Source: a virus. Taken from it: a stretch of DNA of 31,125 nucleotides. Both the position numbers and the translations under genes were made by a program. Below are positions 1 through 31,125 of the stretch, one piece after another. The stretch lies in IMG/VR virus record IMGVR_UViG_3300025645_000295, positions 1 through 31,125 of that record; one strand, given 5' to 3'. Positions within the stretch are counted from its first letter, which is position 1, and each line of letters begins with the position of its first letter. The notes under the pieces are model-generated. The model was not told the origin of the DNA and did no database searches. It worked only from the letters and a program-made list of their open reading frames with translations.

Positions 1-26
1 AAAATATAAAAAGCATACAACGTTTA

Positions 27-59
27 GTATATGAGCCGTTTTTTTTATGGCTTATATAC
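27..59. repeat. Inverted repeat / hairpin, 11-bp arms
   Basis: GTATATGAGCC (27-37) pairs with GGCTTATATAC (49-59) in 10 of 11 positions, and the remaining pair is G-U in RNA. The 11-base loop contains a run of eight T. It could be part of a terminator for a gene to the left of the window or an operator. The motif TTATATAC also occurs twice 12 bases apart (52-59, 64-71). Function unknown. Confidence 0.5.
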
Positions 60-79
60 ATTGTTATATACTGTTATTT

Positions 80-110
80 TTTGTGCGATGGCAAATATTA
101 ATTACCTTTA
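80..110 (+). promoter_or_regulatory. Bacteroidetes-type promoter
   Basis: TTTG at 80-83, a 19-base spacer, and TACCTTTA at 103-110 match the Bacteroidetes sigma-factor consensus TTTG-N(17-23)-TAnnTTTG except for the last base. Transcription would start near 115-117, giving a leader of about 100 bases before the ORF at 217. The palindrome at 123-142 lies just downstream of the predicted start, a position typical of repression. Confidence 0.5.
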
Positions 111-122
111 ATAAATAAAACA

Positions 123-142
123 TTTGTGATTATATTCACAAA
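123..142. promoter_or_regulatory. CRP/FNR-like palindromic operator
   Basis: TTTGTGA (123-129) and TCACAAA (136-142) are perfect inverted copies separated by six bases. The core TGTGA-N6-TCACA is identical to the CRP-family consensus. It lies immediately downstream of the promoter at 80-110, so it is probably a binding site for a host or phage regulator. Which protein binds cannot be told from the window. Confidence 0.5.
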
Positions 143-170
143 AAACACACTTAATATTATTTTTGATAAT

Positions 171-203
171 TGTTTTTCACCAATTATAAGTGTTTTTCAC
201 CAA
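171..203. repeat. Two 13-bp direct repeats, 20-bp period
   Basis: TGTTTTTCACCAA occurs at 171-183 and again at 191-203, exactly 20 bases apart, close to two helical turns. Both copies lie in the leader of the ORF at 217. They may be tandem protein-binding sites or a leader element. No homologous copies were noticed elsewhere in the window. Confidence 0.6.
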
Positions 204-216
204 AAAAATAGTTAAA

Positions 217-360
217 ATGGAAATATACAAAAATTACGAAATAAACCTTAAACCAAATCTTTGGGGATACTATGAAGGAATTAGTACAATAGATTGTGAT
301 GCACTAATAATTTTTGCTTTAACAATTGAAGAAATTAAAATTGAAATTGATCAGCTTTAA
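217..360 (+). CDS. Small protein of unknown function (47 aa)
   Basis: The ORF runs from ATG 217 to TAA 358-360 and encodes 47 residues starting MEIYKNYEINLKP and ending EIKIEIDQL. The stop overlaps the next start (TAATG at 358-362), which supports translational coupling to the RusA-like gene. The protein is acidic at the C-terminus, with no transmembrane segment or motif that I recognise. It is the first gene after the control region at 80-203. It is too short for homology to be judged by eye; the coding call rests on the overlap and position. Confidence 0.6.
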   Translation: MEIYKNYEINLKPNLWGYYEGISTIDCDALIIFALTIEEIKIEIDQL

Positions 361-686
361 TGCACAAAATACAAATCAAACCTTTAAGCGTTAACCAAGC
401 ATGGCAAGGCAAACGATTTAAAACGCCTTTGTATAAACAATGGAGCGTCCAAACTCTGTTGATGATGCCTAAAAAAATTGATATTCCAGAAGGCAAATTA
501 AAAGTTAAAATAAATTTTGGGTTTTCCAATTCAGGTAGTGACATTGACAATCCAGTTAAACCTTTTTTAGACATGTTCAAATTTAAATATGATATTAACG
601 ACAATCGTATTTATAAATTAGAGGTTGAAAAGTTTATAGTTAAAAAGGGGTTTGACTACATAGAGTTTATTATTGATAAATATTAG
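360..686 (+). CDS. rusA: RusA-family Holliday junction resolvase
   Basis: RusA-type enzymes are small dimeric, Mg-dependent endonucleases that cut Holliday junctions and other branched DNA formed during phage recombination and before packaging. The 108-residue length fits the family. The signature region is present: SDIDNPVKPFLDMF at residues 60-73 with acidic residues D61, D63 and D71 and K67, followed by YDINDNRI (78-84) carrying a further conserved acidic residue, D81. The gene starts at ATG 360, overlapping the stop of the upstream small ORF. Together with RecT and the helicase at the other end of the window it would form one recombination and replication module on a circular map. Family assignment is firm; the actual substrate is inferred. 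Confidence 0.88.
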   Translation: MHKIQIKPLSVNQAWQGKRFKTPLYKQWSVQTLLMMPKKIDIPEGKLKVKINFGFSNSGSDIDNPVKPFLDMFKFKYDINDNRIYKLEVEKFIVKKGFDYIEFIIDKY

Positions 687-694
687 TAATTTTG
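687..694 (+). promoter_or_regulatory. -7 promoter box, leaderless class
   Basis: TAATTTTG matches TAnnTTTG. A weak upstream TTTA (666-669) lies 17 bases before it. The box ends exactly 4 bases before the GTG start at 699, so transcription should start at or next to that codon. Confidence 0.55.
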
Positions 695-698
695 CTAT

Positions 699-1163
699 GT
701 GAATGTAATAAACGAGATTTGCAAGTTTGATGATTTCTTTCGAGATAGAGCGAAGCAAATAACAAACAACGCAAGTTATGCCGATGACATCGTTCAAGAG
801 ATGTACTTACGGCTGATGAATCCAACTTACAAAGTTCAGCTACAAGAGCAATTTGATCGAGGCGTTTTAAAATGGGGCTGCATCCGTATTATGTCGCAGA
901 TATTTTTAGGCCATATTAGAGATAATAAAAAGATGGTCTATACAGACGATTTAACGCACGTTTTAGGCTCGGTTAATGATTGCAGCTTTGAGAGGGTGCA
1001 GAATTGTTTGAGCCAACTTTATTGGTTTGATCGAGATATATTAACGCTTCATTTAATAGATGGGCAAAGTATCAAAGAAATTGTAAAAAACACAGGTATT
1101 CCAAGAAATACGGTTTACAATAGAATAAACATAGCAAAACAAAAATTAAAAAATGTGATATGA
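699..1163 (+). CDS. Sigma-70-like (ECF-type) factor
   Basis: The 154-residue protein has the two-part layout of a small sigma factor. Residues 25-40 (ASYADDIVQEMYLRLM) resemble sigma region 2, and residues about 107-151 form a region-4-like helix-turn-helix (FDRDILTLHLIDGQSIKEIV, then GIPRNTVYNRINIAKQKL). The start is GTG at 699; the nearby ATGs at 697 and 703 are closed or out of frame. A TAnnTTTG box ends 4 bases upstream, so the mRNA is probably leaderless. It lies between the resolvase and the tail genes, a sensible place for a regulator of late transcription, and overlaps the next gene by ATGA. Some phage proteins of this fold take part in packaging rather than transcription, so the role is inferred. 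Confidence 0.72.
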   Translation: MNVINEICKFDDFFRDRAKQITNNASYADDIVQEMYLRLMNPTYKVQLQEQFDRGVLKWGCIRIMSQIFLGHIRDNKKMVYTDDLTHVLGSVNDCSFERVQNCLSQLYWFDRDILTLHLIDGQSIKEIVKNTGIPRNTVYNRINIAKQKLKNVI

Positions 1164-1564
1164 AAAAACCGAAAGATTTAAGAACACAGGAAGGCAGAAA
1201 ATGGAAAGCCGAACAATCAAAAGGTTTAGGCGATACAATCGCAAAAGTAACTAAGGCAACAGGCATTGACAAATTAATAGGTGCGGTTGTTGATGATTGC
1301 GGTTGTGATGAGCGAAAGGACAAATTAAATAAATTATTTCCTTACCATAAAAATCTAACAATGACAATCGACCAACAACAAATTTGGATATTGATAAGGT
1401 CGCAATTATTTAGCAACATGGTTAGTCAAGAGAACAGGGAAAGATTAAGAATAATGTACAACGCTATTTTTAGCGATAAAAAACAACCGAGTACCTGCGC
1501 CCCTTGTATAATTAAGCAACGGGATAAAGTACATCAAGTTTACAAAAATGTGTGCAATGATTAA
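1160..1564 (+). CDS. Conserved phage protein with Cys motifs, function unknown
   Basis: This 134-residue protein begins at an ATGA overlap with the sigma-like gene. The N-terminal part is basic (MKKPKDLRTQEGRKWKAEQ), followed by GLGDTIAKVTKATGIDKLI and a CGCDERKDKLNKLFPY segment at residues 47-62. Further cysteines occur as CAPC (113-116) and C132 near the C-terminus. The GLGDTI...CGC-x(1-2)-R-x(4)-LN-x-x-FP pattern resembles proteins I associate with Bacteroidetes phages, but I cannot attach a function. Five cysteines in two clusters could bind a metal ion such as zinc. Its place just before the tail genes suggests a late structural or accessory role; that is inference. Confidence 0.7.
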   Translation: MKKPKDLRTQEGRKWKAEQSKGLGDTIAKVTKATGIDKLIGAVVDDCGCDERKDKLNKLFPYHKNLTMTIDQQQIWILIRSQLFSNMVSQENRERLRIMYNAIFSDKKQPSTCAPCIIKQRDKVHQVYKNVCND

Positions 1565-1811
1565 TAATATTTTAATAATGTTATTTGCTATTTGTTCAGC
1601 TTTTATAATTGCGTTAATTGATGTGTTTTATATTTCTAATCATAAAATTGACAAGGAATTTAAAGCGTTTAGATTTGGGATGTTTGCAATGTTTGCACTT
1701 TTAACCGCTTACACTTATGCGTTTGATTTGGTGATTATACTCAAGTTAATAATGTTCTCTTTTTTTTACTGGTTAGGTTTTAATATTTTTATTAAGCTAT
1801 TTAAACGATGA
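1548..1811 (+). CDS. Small membrane protein
   Basis: The 87-residue product is very hydrophobic. Predicted membrane segments are about residues 6-28 (from NNILIMLFAICSAFIIALI), about 43-60 (FGMFAMFALLTAYTYAF) and about 61-82 (LVIILKLIMFSFFYWLGF), with a basic C-terminus KLFKR. The start may be ATG 1548 or, nine bases later, ATG 1557, which overlaps the upstream stop less. The stop overlaps the next start (1808) by four bases. A holin-like or superinfection-related role is possible for a small phage membrane protein, but a separate holin candidate exists at 23426 and nothing here is diagnostic. Confidence 0.65.
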   Translation: MCAMINNILIMLFAICSAFIIALIDVFYISNHKIDKEFKAFRFGMFAMFALLTAYTYAFDLVIILKLIMFSFFYWLGFNIFIKLFKR

Positions 1812-2407
1812 AATACAAAATAGAAATTCCAACCTCATTAGATGATATTACACTTGCTCAATTTAAAGAGTATAGTTTAATGATTTCGAGGGAAACCGAA
1901 GAAGATTTAACGTTTAAAAAACAAGTGATTAATTTGTTTTGTACAGGTGACACAGAAAAGATTGAGTTTTTTAAGAAGAAGCAAATAGATTCAATATTTG
2001 CAGATTTTAATGAAATGCTTGAATCGGAGCGCAATATTTTTGAAAAGATAATTTCTATTGATGGCAAAGAATATGGTTTTATTCCTAACCTAAAAGATTT
2101 AAGCATTGGCGAGTTTTCAGATATTGAAACGCTTATGAAAGATGGCGTATTTGAGAACATTGAGAAGGTGTTAGCGGTGCTTTACCGACCCGTAATTAAC
2201 AAAGTTAAACACTTGTATAACATAGCCGATTACGATGGATTAAACGACAGAGATAAACTTTTTCTCAATAAATTTCCTGTGAAAAACTTTCATGGAACAA
2301 TGGTTTTTTTTTTGATTATCGCCAAAGAATTATTGATGCATACACACCAATTTTTGAAGGAGAATCAACAGACGGAAAACAAAAGTTTCAAACCTCCACA
2401 AGCATAA
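1808..2407 (+). CDS. Tail assembly chaperone, short (zero-frame) form
   Basis: The 199-residue protein starts at an ATGA overlap with the membrane protein gene. It is mostly alpha-helical and acidic (for example SLDDITLAQFKEYSLM and LKDLSIGEFSDIETLM), as in gpG-type tail assembly chaperones, which bind the tape measure protein and are absent from the finished virion. Near codon 166 the gene contains a run of ten T (2304-2313). In the zero frame translation continues as LIIAKELLMHTHQF and stops at 2405-2407. In the -1 frame an open stretch of 76 codons continues to 2541. This short-plus-extended design is the hallmark of lambda gpG/gpGT and analogues. The family call rests on architecture and on the sequence of the extension, because chaperones of this type diverge strongly. 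Confidence 0.7.
   Translation: MKYKIEIPTSLDDITLAQFKEYSLMISRETEEDLTFKKQVINLFCTGDTEKIEFFKKKQIDSIFADFNEMLESERNIFEKIISIDGKEYGFIPNLKDLSIGEFSDIETLMKDGVFENIEKVLAVLYRPVINKVKHLYNIADYDGLNDRDKLFLNKFPVKNFHGTMVFFLIIAKELLMHTHQFLKENQQTENKSFKPPQA
2304..2313 (+). promoter_or_regulatory. T10 slippery run (probable -1 frameshift site)
   Basis: Ten consecutive T follow ATGG. Zero-frame codons are GTT TTT TTT TTG; slipping back one base gives GTT TTT TTT TTT GAT and enters the open -1 frame. A U10 run also permits RNA polymerase slippage, so the shift could be ribosomal or transcriptional. A homopolymer length error in the assembly is an alternative explanation, which would fuse the two frames into one gene. Confidence 0.65.
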
Positions 2408-2541
2408 ATTGGGGCTGGTACGAGGCACTATTTACCCTTTCGGGAGGTGACATTACCAAATTTGAAGAAGTATCAAGAATTAATGTTGATACAGCTTTAA
2501 CCTTTATTTTGTATTTAAAAGATAAGAGCAAGCAAAAGTAG
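2311..2541 (+). CDS. -1 frame C-terminal extension of the tail assembly chaperone (gpT-like)
   Basis: The -1 frame is open from the T run to TAG 2539-2541 and has no suitable start codon of its own. It encodes 76 residues starting FDYRQRIIDAYTPIFEGES. The C-terminal part contains INWGWYEALFTLSGGDITKF and then EEVSRINVDTALTFILYLKDK. The pattern W-x-WY...L..L..GDI.K...V.......L..L.YLK is what I associate with the T-domain of phage tail assembly chaperones. Fusion with the first 168 codons of the upstream gene would give a 244-residue product. The extension fills nearly all of the gap before the next gene at 2564, which supports the frameshift reading. Confidence 0.65.
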   Translation, partial: FDYRQRIIDAYTPIFEGESTDGKQKFQTSTSINWGWYEALFTLSGGDITKFEEVSRINVDTALTFILYLKDKSKQK

Positions 2542-2563
2542 GCTTGTAAGGTGTTATTATAAT

Positions 2564-3067
2564 ATGGCAACATTCTTTAATTATGTAACCGATATTCGAG
2601 CAATTTGCAGCAGCCACCCACAGGTAGCCGCTAATTATTACGGTGACAACATACAAATTGATTCAGAATCAAAGAACCTTTACCCTGCAATAATTGTAGA
2701 GCCTGCACCTGCTAACATCGTTAACGGGGCGATTGATTACGTTATAAATATAGTTTGTGTTGATTTGATGAAGATTGACCGAAGCCATGATTTAGAGATT
2801 GATTCAAAAATCATTCAAATATTAACCGATATTATAGGTGATATTAAAATGAACGAGGCTTTTAAAGAGTTTAATATTGATCCAGATATTACATTAAATC
2901 CAATTGATCCATCACCCGAATTTAATGATTCACTTTTAGGGTGGTCGGTACAAATTACAGCAACTGCAAAACTTCAAAAAACAGGGTGTGCAAATAGCAT
3001 TATAAATAACAATACATTAGACGGCATAGGTAGCTGGATAATTGAAGATACATTTATCGTAGAATAA
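2564..3067 (+). CDS. Probable tail terminator / tail completion protein
   Basis: The 167-residue protein begins MATFFNYVTDIRAICSSHPQ and has a mixed alpha/beta layout: LYPAIIVEPAPAN, a strand-rich IDYVINIVCVDLMKI, then a long helix (HDLEIDSKIIQILTDIIGDI) and a C-terminal strand (GWSVQITATAKLQ). A strand-strand-helix-strand arrangement of this size, next to a tail chaperone, is what is seen in tail terminator and tail-completion proteins (lambda gpU-like), which cap the tail tube and join it to the head. The match is by architecture and context only. A general structural protein is the main alternative. Confidence 0.5.
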   Translation: MATFFNYVTDIRAICSSHPQVAANYYGDNIQIDSESKNLYPAIIVEPAPANIVNGAIDYVINIVCVDLMKIDRSHDLEIDSKIIQILTDIIGDIKMNEAFKEFNIDPDITLNPIDPSPEFNDSLLGWSVQITATAKLQKTGCANSIINNNTLDGIGSWIIEDTFIVE

Positions 3068-3074
3068 TAAAATT

Positions 3075-4778
3075 ATGGCAACAAGAACAACATTAAAAAG
3101 TTATTTTGAAACAGGTGACAAACCAACGCAAACACAATTTGAAGCGTTAATAGACGGAGTTCCAAACTTAACAGATTCAAGCGTTACTGATGCTGAATTT
3201 GCTCAATTAGATGGTGTTACATCACCTATTCAAACGCAGATAGATGGCAAGCAGGCAACGCTGGTCAATCAAACGAATATTAAATCGGTCAACGGTGAAA
3301 CTCTTTTGGGTTCTGGTGATTTAACGGTTTCATCTTCAGCAGCTTGGGGAGGTATCACAGGCACTTTATCAAGTCAAACAGATTTACAAGATGAACTAAA
3401 TTTAAAGGCAGATTTAACAGGGGCAACCTTTACAGGTGACGTTACTGCTCCAGATTTCATAGGTGACTTAAATGGGGCTGTTCGATTTGCTGCAAAAAAT
3501 GAAAGTGGTGCTACTTTATTAAAGGGTAAAGTTGTAGCAATTATAGGGGTGAGCGGAACAGAAACAACGGTTGATTTAGCCGATGCAGATAACGCATCAG
3601 CAAGACCAGCTTTCGGTTTAGTTTATGCAGATGCAAATAATAATGCAGCCGTTGAAGTTGTAACGTTAGGCGAATTAGCAGGCTTAAATACATCAGCATT
3701 TAGCGAAGGCGACACACTTTATGTTAGCACAACAGCGGGAGATGTAACAACAACACCACCAACAAGCGAAGCTGCCGACATTCAAAATATTGGTCGAGTA
3801 ATTAGAAGCCACGCAAGTGCTGGAATCATTAGAGTGGGTGGAGCAGGCAGAGCAAATCAAACGCCTAACTTAAATGATGGTAATGTATTCGTTGGTAACG
3901 CAAGTAATCAGTCAGTAGCCAGAGCTTTAGTTATTGCTGATACTACAGGCCTACAAACAGCTTTAGATTTAAAGGCTAACGTTGCTGCACCTACTTTTAC
4001 AGGCGATATAACTTCTAACACAGTAAATATAATATCAAACTCAACAGCAGCAACTACTCTTTTAATTGGTGATGTTACTCTTGGTGATACTATCACAGAG
4101 ATGAGGCTTCAGGCATATGGAGCTGACCTTATTAATTTACAAGACCAAGAAGTAACTTTAAAAAGTGACAGTCTTAAAATAACTGGTTCATTATCAACAA
4201 CTGCTCCAGCAACTTATTTAGGTTTATTATCAAGTACAGGTGTAGTAACAAAAAGAACACCAGCTCAAGTACTTGCTGATATCGGGGCTGCTCCTGCTTC
4301 AGGAGGTTCTTACTTACCACTTGCTGGGGGTGCAATGACTGGTGCAATTACAACTAATTCAACATTTGACGGAAGAGATGTAGCTGCTGATGGTGTAACT
4401 GCTGACGCTGCACTACCTAAAACAGGCGGAGAAATGACTGGAGCAATTACGGGCAACGTAGCAATTACAGGATTTAGACCATATTTAACGGAAACAGCAG
4501 GCAGAAGTTTAACTGTAGAAGATTCTGGCACTTTTATAATTGCTAATCTTGGAACAGCTATTTCATTTGAAATTCCATTAAATTCTAATGAAGCATTTAC
4601 ATTAGGTACTGAAATTGATTTTATTCAAAAAGGCGCTGGCGTTTTAAGGATTACTTCGGTAGCAGATGTTTTCTTAAATGGATTAGACTCAAACACAGTA
4701 CCGGTGACAGCTCAATGGGGTGGCGTTACAATAAAGAAGATAGCGGAAGACGAATGGATTGCAGTCGGTAAAATTTAA
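3075..4778 (+). CDS. Tail fibre protein
   Basis: This 567-residue protein carries the repeat units of phage fibres. The N-terminal part has FAQLDGVTSPIQTQIDGKQA; units of the type LQ-x-x-L-x-LKA...TFTGD occur twice (near residues 103-125 and 296-314), and GGAMTGAIT / GGEMTGAIT also occur twice (near 417 and 452). The middle (about 135-265; RFAAKNESGATLLKG onward, through VVTLGELAGLNTSAF and GDTLYVSTTAGDV) resembles a domain common in fibre proteins of aquatic phages. The C-terminus ends in a beta-rich section with GVTIKKIAEDEWIAVGKI, a common fibre terminus. The product probably trimerises and contacts the host surface. The adhesin at 4784 follows within six bases. Confidence 0.82.
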   Translation: MATRTTLKSYFETGDKPTQTQFEALIDGVPNLTDSSVTDAEFAQLDGVTSPIQTQIDGKQATLVNQTNIKSVNGETLLGSGDLTVSSSAAWGGITGTLSSQTDLQDELNLKADLTGATFTGDVTAPDFIGDLNGAVRFAAKNESGATLLKGKVVAIIGVSGTETTVDLADADNASARPAFGLVYADANNNAAVEVVTLGELAGLNTSAFSEGDTLYVSTTAGDVTTTPPTSEAADIQNIGRVIRSHASAGIIRVGGAGRANQTPNLNDGNVFVGNASNQSVARALVIADTTGLQTALDLKANVAAPTFTGDITSNTVNIISNSTAATTLLIGDVTLGDTITEMRLQAYGADLINLQDQEVTLKSDSLKITGSLSTTAPATYLGLLSSTGVVTKRTPAQVLADIGAAPASGGSYLPLAGGAMTGAITTNSTFDGRDVAADGVTADAALPKTGGEMTGAITGNVAITGFRPYLTETAGRSLTVEDSGTFIIANLGTAISFEIPLNSNEAFTLGTEIDFIQKGAGVLRITSVADVFLNGLDSNTVPVTAQWGGVTIKKIAEDEWIAVGKI

Positions 4779-5975: not shown

Positions 5976-6497
5976 ATGAGTTTTCTACAATCTAAAAAAG
6001 TAGTTGATGAGTTCAATAAATTTAACGATGCTATTGTAGCACAGGCACGTTTGAATTTATCGAAAGGTGTTAACGCATCAGGCGCACTTTCAAAGTCGTT
6101 ATCTTCATCATATGAGCCTAAAAAGAATAGTTTTAGGTTAACTTTTTCAATGGAGGATTATGGGCAGTTTATTGATGAAGGGGTTAAAGGCTCAAAGAGT
6201 TCAGCAAAAGCACCAAACAGCCCATTTAAATATACTAATAAAATGCCACCATCGGGAGCATTGGACAGATGGGCAGCAAGAAAAGTATCAAGCGCAAGAA
6301 ATACAAAAGGTCAATTTGTTAGTCGCAAATCTTTAGTTTATGCGATTAGAAAAAGTATATTTTTATACGGAATAAAAGCAACACATTTTTTTACCGATGC
6401 TTTTGAGGCAAAAATGAAAGATTTTGATAAAACAATGTTTAAAATAATAGGTTTTGAGGTTGATGAATTATTAACCTTTGCAAAAAAAAATAACTAA
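5976..6497 (+). CDS. HK97 gp10-like tail/neck protein
   Basis: The 173-residue protein has the layout of HK97 gp10-like proteins: N-terminal helix (MSFLQSKKVVDEFNKFNDAI), a small middle with YGQFIDEGVKGSK near residues 62-75, a loop rich in Ser, Lys and Pro, and a C-terminal part with FFTDAFEAKMKDF. The Y-x-x-FIDEGVKG element is typical, corresponding to the Y-...-VE-x-GT signature in other members. Members sit at the head-tail junction or act in tail completion. It ends one base before the ATG of the next gene. Confidence 0.68.
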   Translation: MSFLQSKKVVDEFNKFNDAIVAQARLNLSKGVNASGALSKSLSSSYEPKKNSFRLTFSMEDYGQFIDEGVKGSKSSAKAPNSPFKYTNKMPPSGALDRWAARKVSSARNTKGQFVSRKSLVYAIRKSIFLYGIKATHFFTDAFEAKMKDFDKTMFKIIGFEVDELLTFAKKNN

Positions 6498-10160: not shown

Positions 10161-10319
10161 ATGAAAGATTTAGTACATATACTTAAATTAATTCAAGACT
10201 TAGAAATTAAACCGATTTCTGATGAAATGAAAATAGCTTTAGGAAAGAACGAATTACCCCGCACTTTTAAGGGTGCTATTGATAAAGTTAAAATAGAGGC
10301 GAAATGGCTAAGAAAATAA
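10161..10319 (+). CDS. Small protein of unknown function (52 aa)
   Basis: ATG 10161 lies four bases after the stop of the large tail protein, and TAA ends at 10319, overlapping the tape measure start at 10304 by 16 bases. The product (MKDLVHILKLIQDLEIKPIS ... AIDKVKIEAKWLRK) is helical and basic at the C-terminus. Without it there would be a gap of about 147 bases in an otherwise tightly packed operon, which supports it as real. It may be a small tail-assembly accessory; no family is recognised. Confidence 0.6.
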   Translation: MKDLVHILKLIQDLEIKPISDEMKIALGKNELPRTFKGAIDKVKIEAKWLRK

Positions 10320-12037
10320 TTTATGCGGAGGTAGTAATCGACTCAGCACAAGCAGCTAAAAATACTGAGGAACTTTCTGAGCAGTTACAAATACAAAGGC
10401 AAGTTTTAATTGATTTAGAAAAACAACTTTACGAAGTTGAGGAGGCTCAAAAAGCGACTTCAAAAACAAATCTCTCAGCTCAAAAGAAATTAGCCGACCA
10501 AGCAAAAGTATTAAAAAGTGAAATTAAAAGCGAAAAGATAGGCTTAAAAGATTTAAATGCTCAAAAGAAATTAAACACAATAACGACAAGAAACTTATCA
10601 AAAGCACAAGCAGATTCTGGGCAGATACTTTTAGGAATTGATGAGTTTACAGGAGGCTATGCAAGTAGATTAAAAGATGTTTATCGGGGATTAATTCAAT
10701 CAGCAAAAGGTGTTAAAACATTTGTTAAGGGATTAAGCGGCATGAAAAAAGCATTAGTAGCCACAGGCGTTGGTGCTTTAGTTGTTGGATTGGGTTTAGT
10801 TGTTGCTTATTGGGATGAAATTATTGATTTAATAGAGGGAACAAATAGAGAATTAAAAGACCAACAAGATTTATTAGATAAGCAAATAAGCTCACAAGAA
10901 ACTAAACTCGGTTTTTTAAAACAACAACAAACTATTGATAAGTTAAACACAGGCGAAAATGTAAAAGCAACAAAAGAATATAAAAAGCAATTAATTCTTT
11001 TACAAGCCTTAAATATTGCACTACTTGAAAGTTTAGAAACTGAATTAAATTTAGAAATTGCACGAAATGAAGAATTAACTACATTTGAGAAAATTAAAAT
11101 ATTTGCAGGTGAAGTATTACATATAGGTTCTACAATTCAACAGGTAGCAGAATACACCAACGATGAAAGTGAAAAAACTCTCTCATTAGCAGAGAGAGTA
11201 GCTAAGCAAAAATCTACTAATTTAGATATAGAAATAGAATTAGCAAAGATAAATTCTGACGAAAGAGAAGCGGTAAAAGAACATGCGGCGCTACTAAAAG
11301 AACTTGATAAAACAGACGAAGAAGCAGATACAAATCTTTTTGATATAGAACTTGCTGACAATAGATTTGAGAATGATCAAAAATTACAAGTTAATCAAGA
11401 TTTTTTAGATGCACTATTTGAGCAAGGACTTGCAGCTAATTTAAAAGAGGAAAAAGCAGCAGAGGATAGAAACAAAAGAATCGCAGCAATGGAGTTAGCG
11501 ACTTCTAACGCAAAAGTTGAATCAGCTATTCAAGGTCTTAACGCTGTACAAAATATTACTAACGCCTTTACTAAAGACAATGAAAAAAGCCAAAAGAAAG
11601 GGTTTGAAATTAATAAAAAATTACAAATAGCGCAAACCATTATTGAAACATACAAAGGAGCTACGGCTATATTCTCAGCAGCAGCTTTAAATCCTACTAC
11701 TGTATTATTCCCTGCCCAACCATTTATTGCGGCAGGTGCTGCAATTGCTTCAGGATTAGCTAATGTAGCGACAATTAGAAAACAGAAATTTTCAGGCGGC
11801 GGAGGAGGCGGAGGAGGCGGAAGAGGCGGAGGCGGAGGCGGTTCATTTAGTGGTAAACCTTCGGGCGGTTTATCAGACAACTTTTTCCCTACTCAAATCG
11901 GTGCAATTCCACAAAATACATCAAATGTAAACGTTCAAAATTTAAACAACACACCACCAAGAGCGTACATAGTTGCAAGTGACATATCAGACTCAACAAG
12001 AGCGCAAGAAATATTAAAACAAAAATCAACAATGTAA
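10304..12037 (+). CDS. Tape measure protein
   Basis: The 577-residue protein has a long N-terminal coiled-coil region (about residues 15-105; for example TEELSEQLQIQRQVLIDLEK), a single hydrophobic segment at about 149-170 (ALVATGVGALVVGLGLVVAY), further helices rich in Lys, Glu and Gln, a second hydrophobic stretch near 450-485 and a glycine-rich tract (FSGGGGGGGGGRGGGGGGS). This order is typical of tape measure proteins, which set tail length and may enter the host membrane during DNA ejection. At 577 residues it is short, and if the usual rule of about 1.5 angstrom per residue applies the tail would be below 100 nm. It lies downstream of the tail tip genes and overlaps the protease gene by one base. 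Confidence 0.75.
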   Translation: MAKKIIYAEVVIDSAQAAKNTEELSEQLQIQRQVLIDLEKQLYEVEEAQKATSKTNLSAQKKLADQAKVLKSEIKSEKIGLKDLNAQKKLNTITTRNLSKAQADSGQILLGIDEFTGGYASRLKDVYRGLIQSAKGVKTFVKGLSGMKKALVATGVGALVVGLGLVVAYWDEIIDLIEGTNRELKDQQDLLDKQISSQETKLGFLKQQQTIDKLNTGENVKATKEYKKQLILLQALNIALLESLETELNLEIARNEELTTFEKIKIFAGEVLHIGSTIQQVAEYTNDESEKTLSLAERVAKQKSTNLDIEIELAKINSDEREAVKEHAALLKELDKTDEEADTNLFDIELADNRFENDQKLQVNQDFLDALFEQGLAANLKEEKAAEDRNKRIAAMELATSNAKVESAIQGLNAVQNITNAFTKDNEKSQKKGFEINKKLQIAQTIIETYKGATAIFSAAALNPTTVLFPAQPFIAAGAAIASGLANVATIRKQKFSGGGGGGGGGRGGGGGGSFSGKPSGGLSDNFFPTQIGAIPQNTSNVNVQNLNNTPPRAYIVASDISDSTRAQEILKQKSTM

Positions 12038-16965: not shown

Positions 16966-17888
16966 TGGCAAATTTATTGACTGGCAATTTTGCTGGAACA
17001 AAAGCACAGGGGTATTTGTACCCTGCGGTAATGACCGCGAACACATTAACCAACAATATTGTTGAAACACATGAGAACGTTAAGTACAAGTTAAACCTAA
17101 GAAATTTAGCAACAACAGGTTTTATCGCTGATGCAAATTGCGATTTCACAGCAAACGGAGCAGTTGCTTTGTCTGATGTAGTTTTAACACCGAAACAACT
17201 GGAAGTTAATATCCAACTTTGTAAGGATGATTTTAGAGATCAATGGGAAGCGTTAGAAATGAAAGGCAAATTATTAGGGCAAGACATACCTGCAAGTTTC
17301 CAAGAATTTTTTATTAGCAAAATCCAAGCATTAACTGCAAAAGATATCGAAACTACAATCTGGCAAGGTGCTGATGCAACCGAAGGACAATTTGACGGAT
17401 TTGAAGCGTTATTACTTGCTGATGATGATGTTACTGATGTAACAGGAACTACTTTAGACGCTGGTAATATTATAGGCGAAATTGGAAAAGTTTACGATGC
17501 AATTACTGACGCTGTATTTAGCCAACCAGAAGATGCATTTATCGCAATCTCTATCAAGGCTTCTAAACTTTATCAAACTGCATTGGCAGGATTTGGAACG
17601 GGTGGACTTGGTGCAAATGGTTATTTAAATCAAGGTTCAGTTGGAGCAAAACCAATGGATTACAACGGAGTTAGATTAGTTGTTTGTAACGGTTTAAGTG
17701 CAAATAAAATGGTAGCTACCGTTAAAGGTAACTTGCATTTTGGCACAAACGTTTTAACTGACATGAACGAAGTAATTATCTTGGATATGACTATGCTTGA
17801 TGCATCTCAGAACGTAAGATACGCTTCAGGATTTACCGCAGGTGTTCAAATTACTAACCCTACTGACATAGTATATTATTACAGCTAA
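16965..17888 (+). CDS. Major capsid protein, HK97 fold
   Basis: The 307-residue protein lies between scaffold and probable tail tube protein. It starts MANLLTGNFAGTKAQGYLYP and has a middle with QEFFISKIQALTAKDIETTI, WQGADATEGQFDGF and AFIAISIKASKLYQTALAGF, then VRLVVCNGLSANKMVATVKG, NLHFGTNVLTDMNEVIILDM and the end QNVRYASGFTAGVQITNPTD. The pattern of a helical spine, an A-domain with a late FG-x-N-x-L segment, and a C-terminal VRY...F-x-x-G-x-QI agrees with HK97-fold capsid proteins of Bacteroidetes phages. No long N-terminal delta domain is visible, which fits the presence of a separate scaffold. It is the expected most abundant virion protein. Confidence 0.82.
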   Translation: MANLLTGNFAGTKAQGYLYPAVMTANTLTNNIVETHENVKYKLNLRNLATTGFIADANCDFTANGAVALSDVVLTPKQLEVNIQLCKDDFRDQWEALEMKGKLLGQDIPASFQEFFISKIQALTAKDIETTIWQGADATEGQFDGFEALLLADDDVTDVTGTTLDAGNIIGEIGKVYDAITDAVFSQPEDAFIAISIKASKLYQTALAGFGTGGLGANGYLNQGSVGAKPMDYNGVRLVVCNGLSANKMVATVKGNLHFGTNVLTDMNEVIILDMTMLDASQNVRYASGFTAGVQITNPTDIVYYYS

Positions 17889-18400
17889 TGGCTTGTTTAG
17901 TATCAGAAGGTAGAGCATGGCAATGCAAGGAACAGACGGGGGGAATCTCGGCTATTTACTTTGCAAACTATGACGCATTAAGTGGGCAAGCTGCTCCAGC
18001 GTTAGGAATCATCCCCGAATTAACGGGAACGGTTCAATTATATAAGTATAGTTTACCAGAATACACAGCAAGTTTGACGGAAACAATAAACGCAAGTGTT
18101 GAAAACGGGACTTACTTTGTAGAGCAAGTTATTGAGATGACTTTGCACAAGTTAAGAGCAGACGAAAGAGCAGAGATCAAATTATTAGCTGCTGGCAGAC
18201 CAAAAATAATAGTTGAGGATAACAACGGAAATTTGTTATTATTAGGCTATGAAAAAGGCTGTAATATGTCGGCTGGTTCAGCACAAAGCGGAACGGCAGC
18301 AGGTGATTTATCAGGTTATCAATTAACTTTTACAGCAAACGAAGACAACACCGCACCATTTGTGGCTGGTCTTGGTAGTGCAACAATTAATAACCCGTAA
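17888..18400 (+). CDS. Probable major tail (tube) protein
   Basis: The 170-residue protein starts at a TAATG overlap with the capsid gene. It contains LYKYSLPEYTASLTETINAS, the VENGTYFVEQVIEMTLHKLR segment (residues about 71-90), RPKIIVEDNNGNLLLLGYEK and then GDLSGYQLTFTANED followed by PFV at the C-terminus. A beta-rich core with a VEDN-G-x-x-x-LLG segment and a GDLxGYxxTFxAxE end is a pattern I associate with tail tube proteins of Bacteroidetes phages. The stop is followed by a strong terminator, so this gene closes a virion-protein transcript. Another virion protein is the main alternative. Confidence 0.6.
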   Translation: MACLVSEGRAWQCKEQTGGISAIYFANYDALSGQAAPALGIIPELTGTVQLYKYSLPEYTASLTETINASVENGTYFVEQVIEMTLHKLRADERAEIKLLAAGRPKIIVEDNNGNLLLLGYEKGCNMSAGSAQSGTAAGDLSGYQLTFTANEDNTAPFVAGLGSATINNP

Positions 18401-18423
18401 GAATTAATCTTAATATTTATTTT

Positions 18424-18458
18424 AAAAGCCTCTCATTTATTTGGGGGGCTTTTTTTTT
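18424..18458 (+). terminator. Intrinsic terminator after the capsid operon
   Basis: AAAAGCCTCTC and GGGGGGCTTTT form a stem with T-G pairs around the loop ATTTATTT, followed by nine T. It sits 24 bases after the stop of the probable tail tube gene and separates the capsid operon from the portal operon. Confidence 0.85.
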
Positions 18459-18463
18459 AGGGA

Positions 18464-18491
18464 TTTGTTGCCTTGAAATGTGTTATATTTA
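18464..18491 (+). promoter_or_regulatory. Promoter for the portal operon
   Basis: TTTG (18464-18467), a 16-base spacer and TATATTTA (18484-18491), one base short of TAnnTTTG. It directly follows the terminator and ends two bases before ATG 18494, so the transcript is probably leaderless or nearly so. Confidence 0.5.
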
Positions 18492-18493
18492 TA

Positions 18494-18838
18494 ATGATTG
18501 GAATCTTTCAAAATACTGATTTTTTATATGTTGATTTATTTCAGCATGATCAAAGTATTACATCCGTTGAAAACTACGATTTAAACTTTGTTAATTCAAC
18601 CGATGGCACTATATACTCAATTGACGATTTAACGCCATTAGAAGCGTTTGAAAGGTACTTTAAATTCGATTTAAGTACATTAAGTTCAACGATGCCAGAC
18701 GGATTATATAGTTTTAATATAACTTTGGCATCATCAACGCTAATTATCTTTGCAGAAATAGCATATTTTGATAGAACTGCATCAATTGATTTTAGTGAAA
18801 ATAATATAACGACAACATACGCTATTAATGAAATCTAA
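18494..18838 (+). CDS. Protein of unknown function (114 aa)
   Basis: I place the start at ATG 18494 (MIGIFQNTDFLYVDLFQHDQ) because the promoter box at 18484-18491 leaves no room for the TTG at 18473. The product is beta-rich with YDLNFVNSTDGTIYSIDDLT and MPDGLYSFNITLASSTLIIF. Strand-rich small proteins before the portal gene are sometimes virion accessory proteins. It overlaps the portal gene start by 11 bases. No family is recognised. Confidence 0.55.
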   Translation: MIGIFQNTDFLYVDLFQHDQSITSVENYDLNFVNSTDGTIYSIDDLTPLEAFERYFKFDLSTLSSTMPDGLYSFNITLASSTLIIFAEIAYFDRTASIDFSENNITTTYAINEI

Positions 18839-31027: not shown

Positions 31028-31125
31028 ACGATATAATAGAATTAGACGCAAAGCATTTACAGGTTAAGGCAATTGTTAGCGTGTTTATTGATGAATTAAG
31101 TTCAGCGATGCCATCATCTAAATGG
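31024..31125 (+). CDS. Start of a gene that runs off the window
   Basis: ATG 31024 overlaps the helicase stop and opens a frame of 34 codons to the window end (MNDIIELDAKHLQVKAIVSV, then FIDELSSAMPSSKW). It is partial at the 3' end. The short fragment is helical; by position it belongs to the replication operon. No family can be named. Confidence 0.6.
   Translation, partial: MNDIIELDAKHLQVKAIVSVFIDELSSAMPSSKW

Follow-up and report, generated by a model that had tools for sequence, protein, structure and literature searches.

A conserved T9/T10 run between two frames of a phage tail assembly chaperone-like gene is a probable site of RNA polymerase slippage

A short and an extended form of one protein are the hallmark of tail assembly chaperones (TACs), and the −1 shift in their genes is a standard example of frameshifting by the ribosome. 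In the viral record IMGVR_UViG_3300025645_000295 (31125 bases, analysed at its full length and referred to here as the window) a gene of this appearance has its two frames meeting at an uninterrupted run of Ts. This raises the question of whether the two frames are really joined and, if they are, whether the ribosome or the RNA polymerase changes frame. The window phage is of the Flavobacteria type, and we propose that two forms of a probable tail-building helper, one short and one long, are made from this gene. The site consists of the following features.

1808–2407, plus strand: zero-frame ORF encoding the short, gpG-like product (199 aa).
2304–2313, plus strand: T10 run, the putative slippage site, containing the in-frame heptamers U_UUU_UUU (2305–2311) and U_UUU_UUG (2308–2314).
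2305–2541, plus strand: −1 frame extension (C domain, WGWY...LSGGDITKFEEV...LYLKDK) without its own start; the predicted fusion has 244 aa.

A preliminary description of this DNA had placed the zero-frame stop at 2407 and had the −1 frame open from the T10 run to 2541; our coordinates agree, and the window sequence has exactly ten Ts at 2304–2313. The −1 frame is open from 2272 (the previous −1 stop is at 2269–2271) to its stop at 2539–2541, which leaves 22 bases before the next gene (2564), and the +1 frame meets a stop at the very end of the run (2313–2315). The extension had been said to lack a start of its own. Indeed, it contains no ATG, and translation could begin at the earliest at a TTG, the 66th codon after the run. 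The description of T10 as an unusual, non-heptameric site did not hold, since the run contains the two in-frame heptamers listed above and phage P2 uses the U-rich TTTTTTG. In the zero-frame protein, residues ∼ 1–168 form a conserved domain and the tail after the run is variable. Both halves were folded separately, as plain translations, by structure prediction: the AlphaFold2 model of the zero-frame protein (pLDDT 91.6) has a long helix (158–192) that spans the shift site, and the model of the −1 domain is helical (pLDDT 74.3).

An independent contig, IMGVR_UViG_3300022164_000004, is 100% identical to window positions 1–3622, T10 included. The same contig matches 28362–31125 and bridges base 31125 to base 1; the 31125-base record is thus, as judged from this match, probably a complete genome with a circular map. 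The first relatives were one viral contig and the Nonlabens phages P12024L and P12024S; hundreds more came from profile-based scans of IMG/VR. The 0/−1 layout recurs at the matching protein position in the second, identical contig, in the two cultured Nonlabens phages and in 349 viral loci, which is well beyond chance. In most loci the frame 0 and frame −1 tblastn segments join near query residues 166–176. The homologous site was reached in 240 of 242 loci, the other two contigs stopping before it. After the run the −1 tail stays open for a median of 85 codons, compared with 52 for the zero-frame tail and 2 for the +1 tail, and the −1 domain could be aligned in 50 diverse members (motif KWGWY..IY.LA.GDI....V....L..CL..L.Y.KDK). 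The Nonlabens proteins gp40–gp41 (phrog_32199 and phrog_38404), annotated as two hypothetical proteins and ∼ 24% identical to the window protein, are members of the family, with T9 at the matching place and a −1 extension. Two scans of genome contigs for relatives found none, and no prophage or host was found that way. The preliminary description had envisaged, as findings that would speak against it, a T run whose length joins the frames without a shift, or homologues without a conserved −1 ORF. The opposite was observed for both. On this comparative evidence, the T-run junction is a real and widely conserved recoding site and not an error.

Distant homologues, reached via Flavobacterium phage 6H and matched weakly by the family profile, have a single continuous frame (Flavobacterium phages 23T and laban6-1, Cellulophaga phage Ingeline_1, Polaribacter phage Leef_1 and Microcystis phage Mea-Yong924-1). 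In Mea-Yong924-1 the profile match continues past the Phe-Phe site and takes in the WGWY domain without a change of frame; a further scan found no relatives of this protein. These homologues indicate that both domains are part of one protein. The Phe-Phe pair is encoded by T6 at the matching place in laban6-1, Ingeline_1 and Mea-Yong924-1, and none of the five continuous-frame homologues has a run of more than six Ts there, so homologues that need no shift do without the long run. In the phage 6H record itself, gp10 (10352–10927, minus strand) stops early. We considered a different shift site in 6H gp10 and rejected it because the near-identical 23T has one continuous frame (293 aa); the frame difference near the site in the 6H record is possibly an indel.

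In one set of scans the queries were either zero-frame peptides ending before the run or conserved motifs away from it, and those scans therefore could not select for the run. At the 240 sites obtained with such run-free queries its length is T9 (204 sites) or T10 (36 sites), with no other length found. Taking all scans together (349 loci, 264 distinct sites), T9 or T10 is present at 252 of the 264 sites and T7 or T8 at 12; when the sites are clustered at 70% identity, 104 of 105 clusters have a run of at least nine. Outside the site, 1.39 Mb of the same loci contain 105 T7 runs, 50 T8 runs and 20 longer ones, and Phe-Phe pairs elsewhere in these loci are encoded by TTTTTT in only 121 of 291 cases.

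The T9/T10 runs are found in all three codon phases. If the codon preceding Phe-Phe is numbered 1–3, the runs in the first 240 loci occupy positions 1–9, 1–10, 2–10, 2–11 or 3–11. The in-frame heptamer U_UUU_UUU requires positions 3–9 only, i.e. seven Ts; the two Ts beyond it can precede the heptamer, follow it or flank it, and a loss on one side pairs with a gain on the opposite side. When the right extensions were permuted among representatives of the 70% clusters, none of 20000 trials was free of runs shorter than nine, relatedness being ignored; the same permutation gave 1 such trial in 20000 with 50% clusters and 13 in 20000 with 40% clusters. It preceded the discovery of the T7/T8 clade described below and treated cluster representatives without regard to relatedness. 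On a tree of the first 123 clusters the register of the run changed at least 16 times and never fell below nine Ts; phylogenetically independent pairs gave three opposite and no same-direction changes, too few for significance. The comparison points to a minimum run length that is conserved independently of codon phase, with one clade deviating.

Upstream Shine–Dalgarno (SD)-like elements and downstream structures are common, though not obligatory, stimulators of −1 ribosomal frameshifting. Pseudoknot-free downstream RNA structure was not above that of shuffled sequences over 87 clusters (mean z 0.07) or in the window (z 0.19), and an upstream SD-like motif of five bases was found in none of the 88 clusters with at least nine Ts. 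The sole T7/T8 clade (L333 and L335–L348; GC 0.49–0.51) represents one evolutionary event; its loci have T7, or T8 in two cases. All of them carry GGAGGGG 9–15 nt upstream of the run, with an anti-SD duplex of −9.8 kcal/mol, compared with a best value of −6.0 and a median of −3.1 kcal/mol in the 88 clusters. The nearest relatives of the clade (L349–L361, ∼ 58% identity) have the same GC, lack the GGAGG element and keep T9, and base composition alone is thus not the cause. Downstream hairpins in the T7 clade were considered and discarded, as they did not consistently score better than shuffled sequences (z −2.1, −0.2 and 0.2). This clade appears to use ribosomal frameshifting with an SD-like stimulator in place of polymerase slippage.

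Two frames, a conserved site, a conserved −1 domain and a phase-independent minimum run length are properties that can be read from the aligned sequences. We infer the remainder, namely slipping by RNA polymerase and not by the ribosome, the proportion in which the two forms are made and a role as a chaperone. Ordinary transcription and translation would yield the 199-residue zero-frame protein. During elongation RNA polymerase would slip on T9/T10, with a net gain of one U or a net loss of two, and the slipped mRNAs, a minority, would place the downstream domain in frame, so that normal translation would give the fusion of ∼ 244 residues. Where the run fell below nine, in one GC-rich clade, SD-stimulated ribosomal frameshifting would have taken over. 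In our judgement it is probable that the TAC-like long form is made by such programmed slippage, with the one clade having switched to ribosomal frameshifting.

Support for slippage comes from the frame-blind minimum of nine Ts, the lack of detected stimulators and the literature taken together; the comparative evidence thus favours what the preliminary description had suggested in passing, a possible part for polymerase slippage. Bacterial RNA polymerase, whose hybrid measures 9–10 bp, slips with high efficiency in vivo on nine As or Ts (PMC5009743). The E. coli enzyme requires at least seven Ts, slips at ∼ 10% on T8 and prefers poly(T) (PMC6260861), and Tn with n > 8 is among the listed sites of programmed transcriptional realignment (PMC3711429). 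No TAC produced through transcriptional slippage came up in our literature search. At 699–1163 the window encodes a Sigma-70-like protein (Sigma70_r4_2, 6e-9), and a gene for Sigma-70 region 2 sits at a comparable position in the Nonlabens phages; a sigma factor encoded by the phage could bear on a mechanism that acts in transcription.

The main alternative, possible but doubtful for the family as a whole, is that the ribosome makes a programmed −1 shift on U_UUU_UUU or U_UUU_UUG, in the style of P2 E/E+E′. The run length would then be incidental or would aid tRNA re-pairing. An in-frame U_UUU_UUU is present in every member, though any run of nine implies it, and for this reason the sequence is always compatible with ribosomal slipping. 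The TAC of P2 shifts on TTTTTTG without detectable structure (PMC3091744), and the T7 clade with its SD-like element suggests that a bare heptamer can suffice. Ribosomal frameshifting does not, however, readily account for a nine-T minimum that also holds in phases 1 and 2, where eight and seven Ts would suffice, or for left and right extensions that compensate each other. Furthermore, neither an SD-like element nor downstream structure was detected in the members with at least nine Ts, and in E. coli the ribosome shifts poorly on U_UUU_UUU (PMC5009743).

Known systems resemble the window family in different respects. P2 gpE/gpE+E′ (phrog_166, Phage_TAC_7 type) shares a short and a −1 extended form, a U-rich site and the lack of detected downstream structure, and there are weak profile matches in the N domain. 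The P2 slip site, however, is T6G (GGTTTTTTGTC), whereas the window family has T9/T10 with a conserved minimum length; and P2 gene E directly precedes the tape-measure gene, whereas the window family, which has no named function, lies away from it. Lambda gpG/gpGT is alike in layout (two products, a −1 extension and a presumed unequal ratio) but relies on ribosomal frameshifting at GGGAAAG, unlike the T run of the window. In Thermus dnaX and Shigella mxiE and spa13, which undergo programmed transcriptional slippage, a homopolymer of ∼ 9 As or Ts joins two frames as here. Those are bacterial genes, whereas the present family is TAC-like and from phages, and it keeps its run in over 100 clusters, with each of the three codon phases represented.

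Other A/T runs were also noted. In Flavobacterium phage 11b the gene just before a putative tape-measure gene (17864–18530) contains an A9 run, from which a −1 extension of 114 codons is open; no other relatives of this gene were found. The tail genes of B124-14 and P12002L were scanned and contain no comparable A/T run. The window itself has a second T9 run (18450–18458) that follows GGGGGGC and lies between a gene ending at 18400 and one starting at 18473; it is possibly a terminator.

Whether the protein is a TAC can be judged from its profile matches and from its gene neighbourhood, which includes the following features.

2564–3067, plus strand: next gene (167 aa); its counterpart in relatives is a protein of ∼ 155 aa (phrog_30964).
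5976–6497, plus strand: phrog_29822 protein with a weak tail completion/Neck1 match; its counterpart in relatives lies two genes downstream of the TAC-like gene.
10304–12037, plus strand: tail length tape measure protein (phrog_24676, 1.3e-12; phrog_9483, 2e-12).

All TAC profile matches fall below curated cut-offs. Phage_TAC_7 (PF10109) matches 9 of 52 members (best 0.004, never over its curated cut-off) and phrog_166, likewise matched by P2 gpE, 14 of 52 (best 0.0011); the Pfam families shown other than PF10109 match one member each. By comparison of coordinates in 44 records, the best match is located on the TAC-like gene in 6 (PF10109) and 15 (phrog_166) of them. Pfam gave nothing consistent on the C domain. 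Comparison of the zero-frame model with the PDB yielded no convincing structural match (Foldseek best E 0.25, VIA-align best Z 2.8), PDB-sequence profile searches gave chance-level matches only, and matches in the viral library were mostly uncharacterised phage proteins, the Nonlabens protein included. The tape-measure gene lies 7.8 kb downstream of the TAC-like gene, with seven genes between, and in relatives the TAC-like gene directly follows the large terminase gene. It does not occupy the position between the major tail protein and the tape-measure gene that is seen in classical TACs, and because it does not adjoin the tape-measure gene we refer to it as TAC-like.

The recoding could be real and the protein another tail or head–tail component and not a chaperone. 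The gene order in relatives (large terminase, TAC-like gene, ∼ 155 aa gene, Neck1-like gene), away from the tape measure, is consistent with this, as is the lack of a confident TAC family match. We consider it unlikely, because the weak matches to TAC_7 and to the P2 gpE family are specific to this gene and a short plus an extended form is what characterizes TACs. The product is a probable, though not proven, member of the tail assembly chaperone family as far as these sequence data go. The gene with a −1 extension at the T run that the preliminary description had put forward as a tail assembly chaperone is upheld in this TAC-like form by its conserved architecture, the weak gene-specific TAC matches and the in-frame fused homologues.

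That the T run reflects a sequencing error or varies in phase at the DNA level, with the frames joined wholly or in part of the population, is very improbable. Homopolymers are mutable, and one locus (L095, 2555–3298) has T10 where relatives of 96–99% identity have T9 and reads as a single continuous frame, which is possibly an indel error or a natural allele. The joined state was nevertheless seen in only 1 of 240 loci, and the split is kept in the independent contig and in two cultured phages. That the −1 ORF is a separate protein made by re-initiation, as the Nonlabens records might suggest by annotating the extension as a separate gene whose ATG overlaps the stop of the preceding one, is hardly credible, since the window extension has no start before codon 66, an ATG occurs within the first 30 codons in only 2 of 88 clusters and the distant homologues are one fused frame.

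For phage annotation, phrog_32199 and phrog_38404, now classed as two unrelated families without a known function, would be two halves of one protein, and the TAC-like family is a warning that gene callers miss the long form. On balance, we lean towards a general picture in which a large TAC-like family of Bacteroidota-type phages has its short:long ratio set by polymerase slippage on a T9/T10 run whose length is strictly kept, with a GC-rich clade that swapped to SD-stimulated frameshifting. The existence of T9 members alongside a T7-plus-SD clade makes the choice of mechanism directly testable. The unrelated A9 TAC candidate of Flavobacterium phage 11b would widen homopolymer slippage among these phages. 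If the picture is true, phages can set the short:long ratio of a TAC at the level of transcription, and the same decision at the same position would be taken by two different machines.
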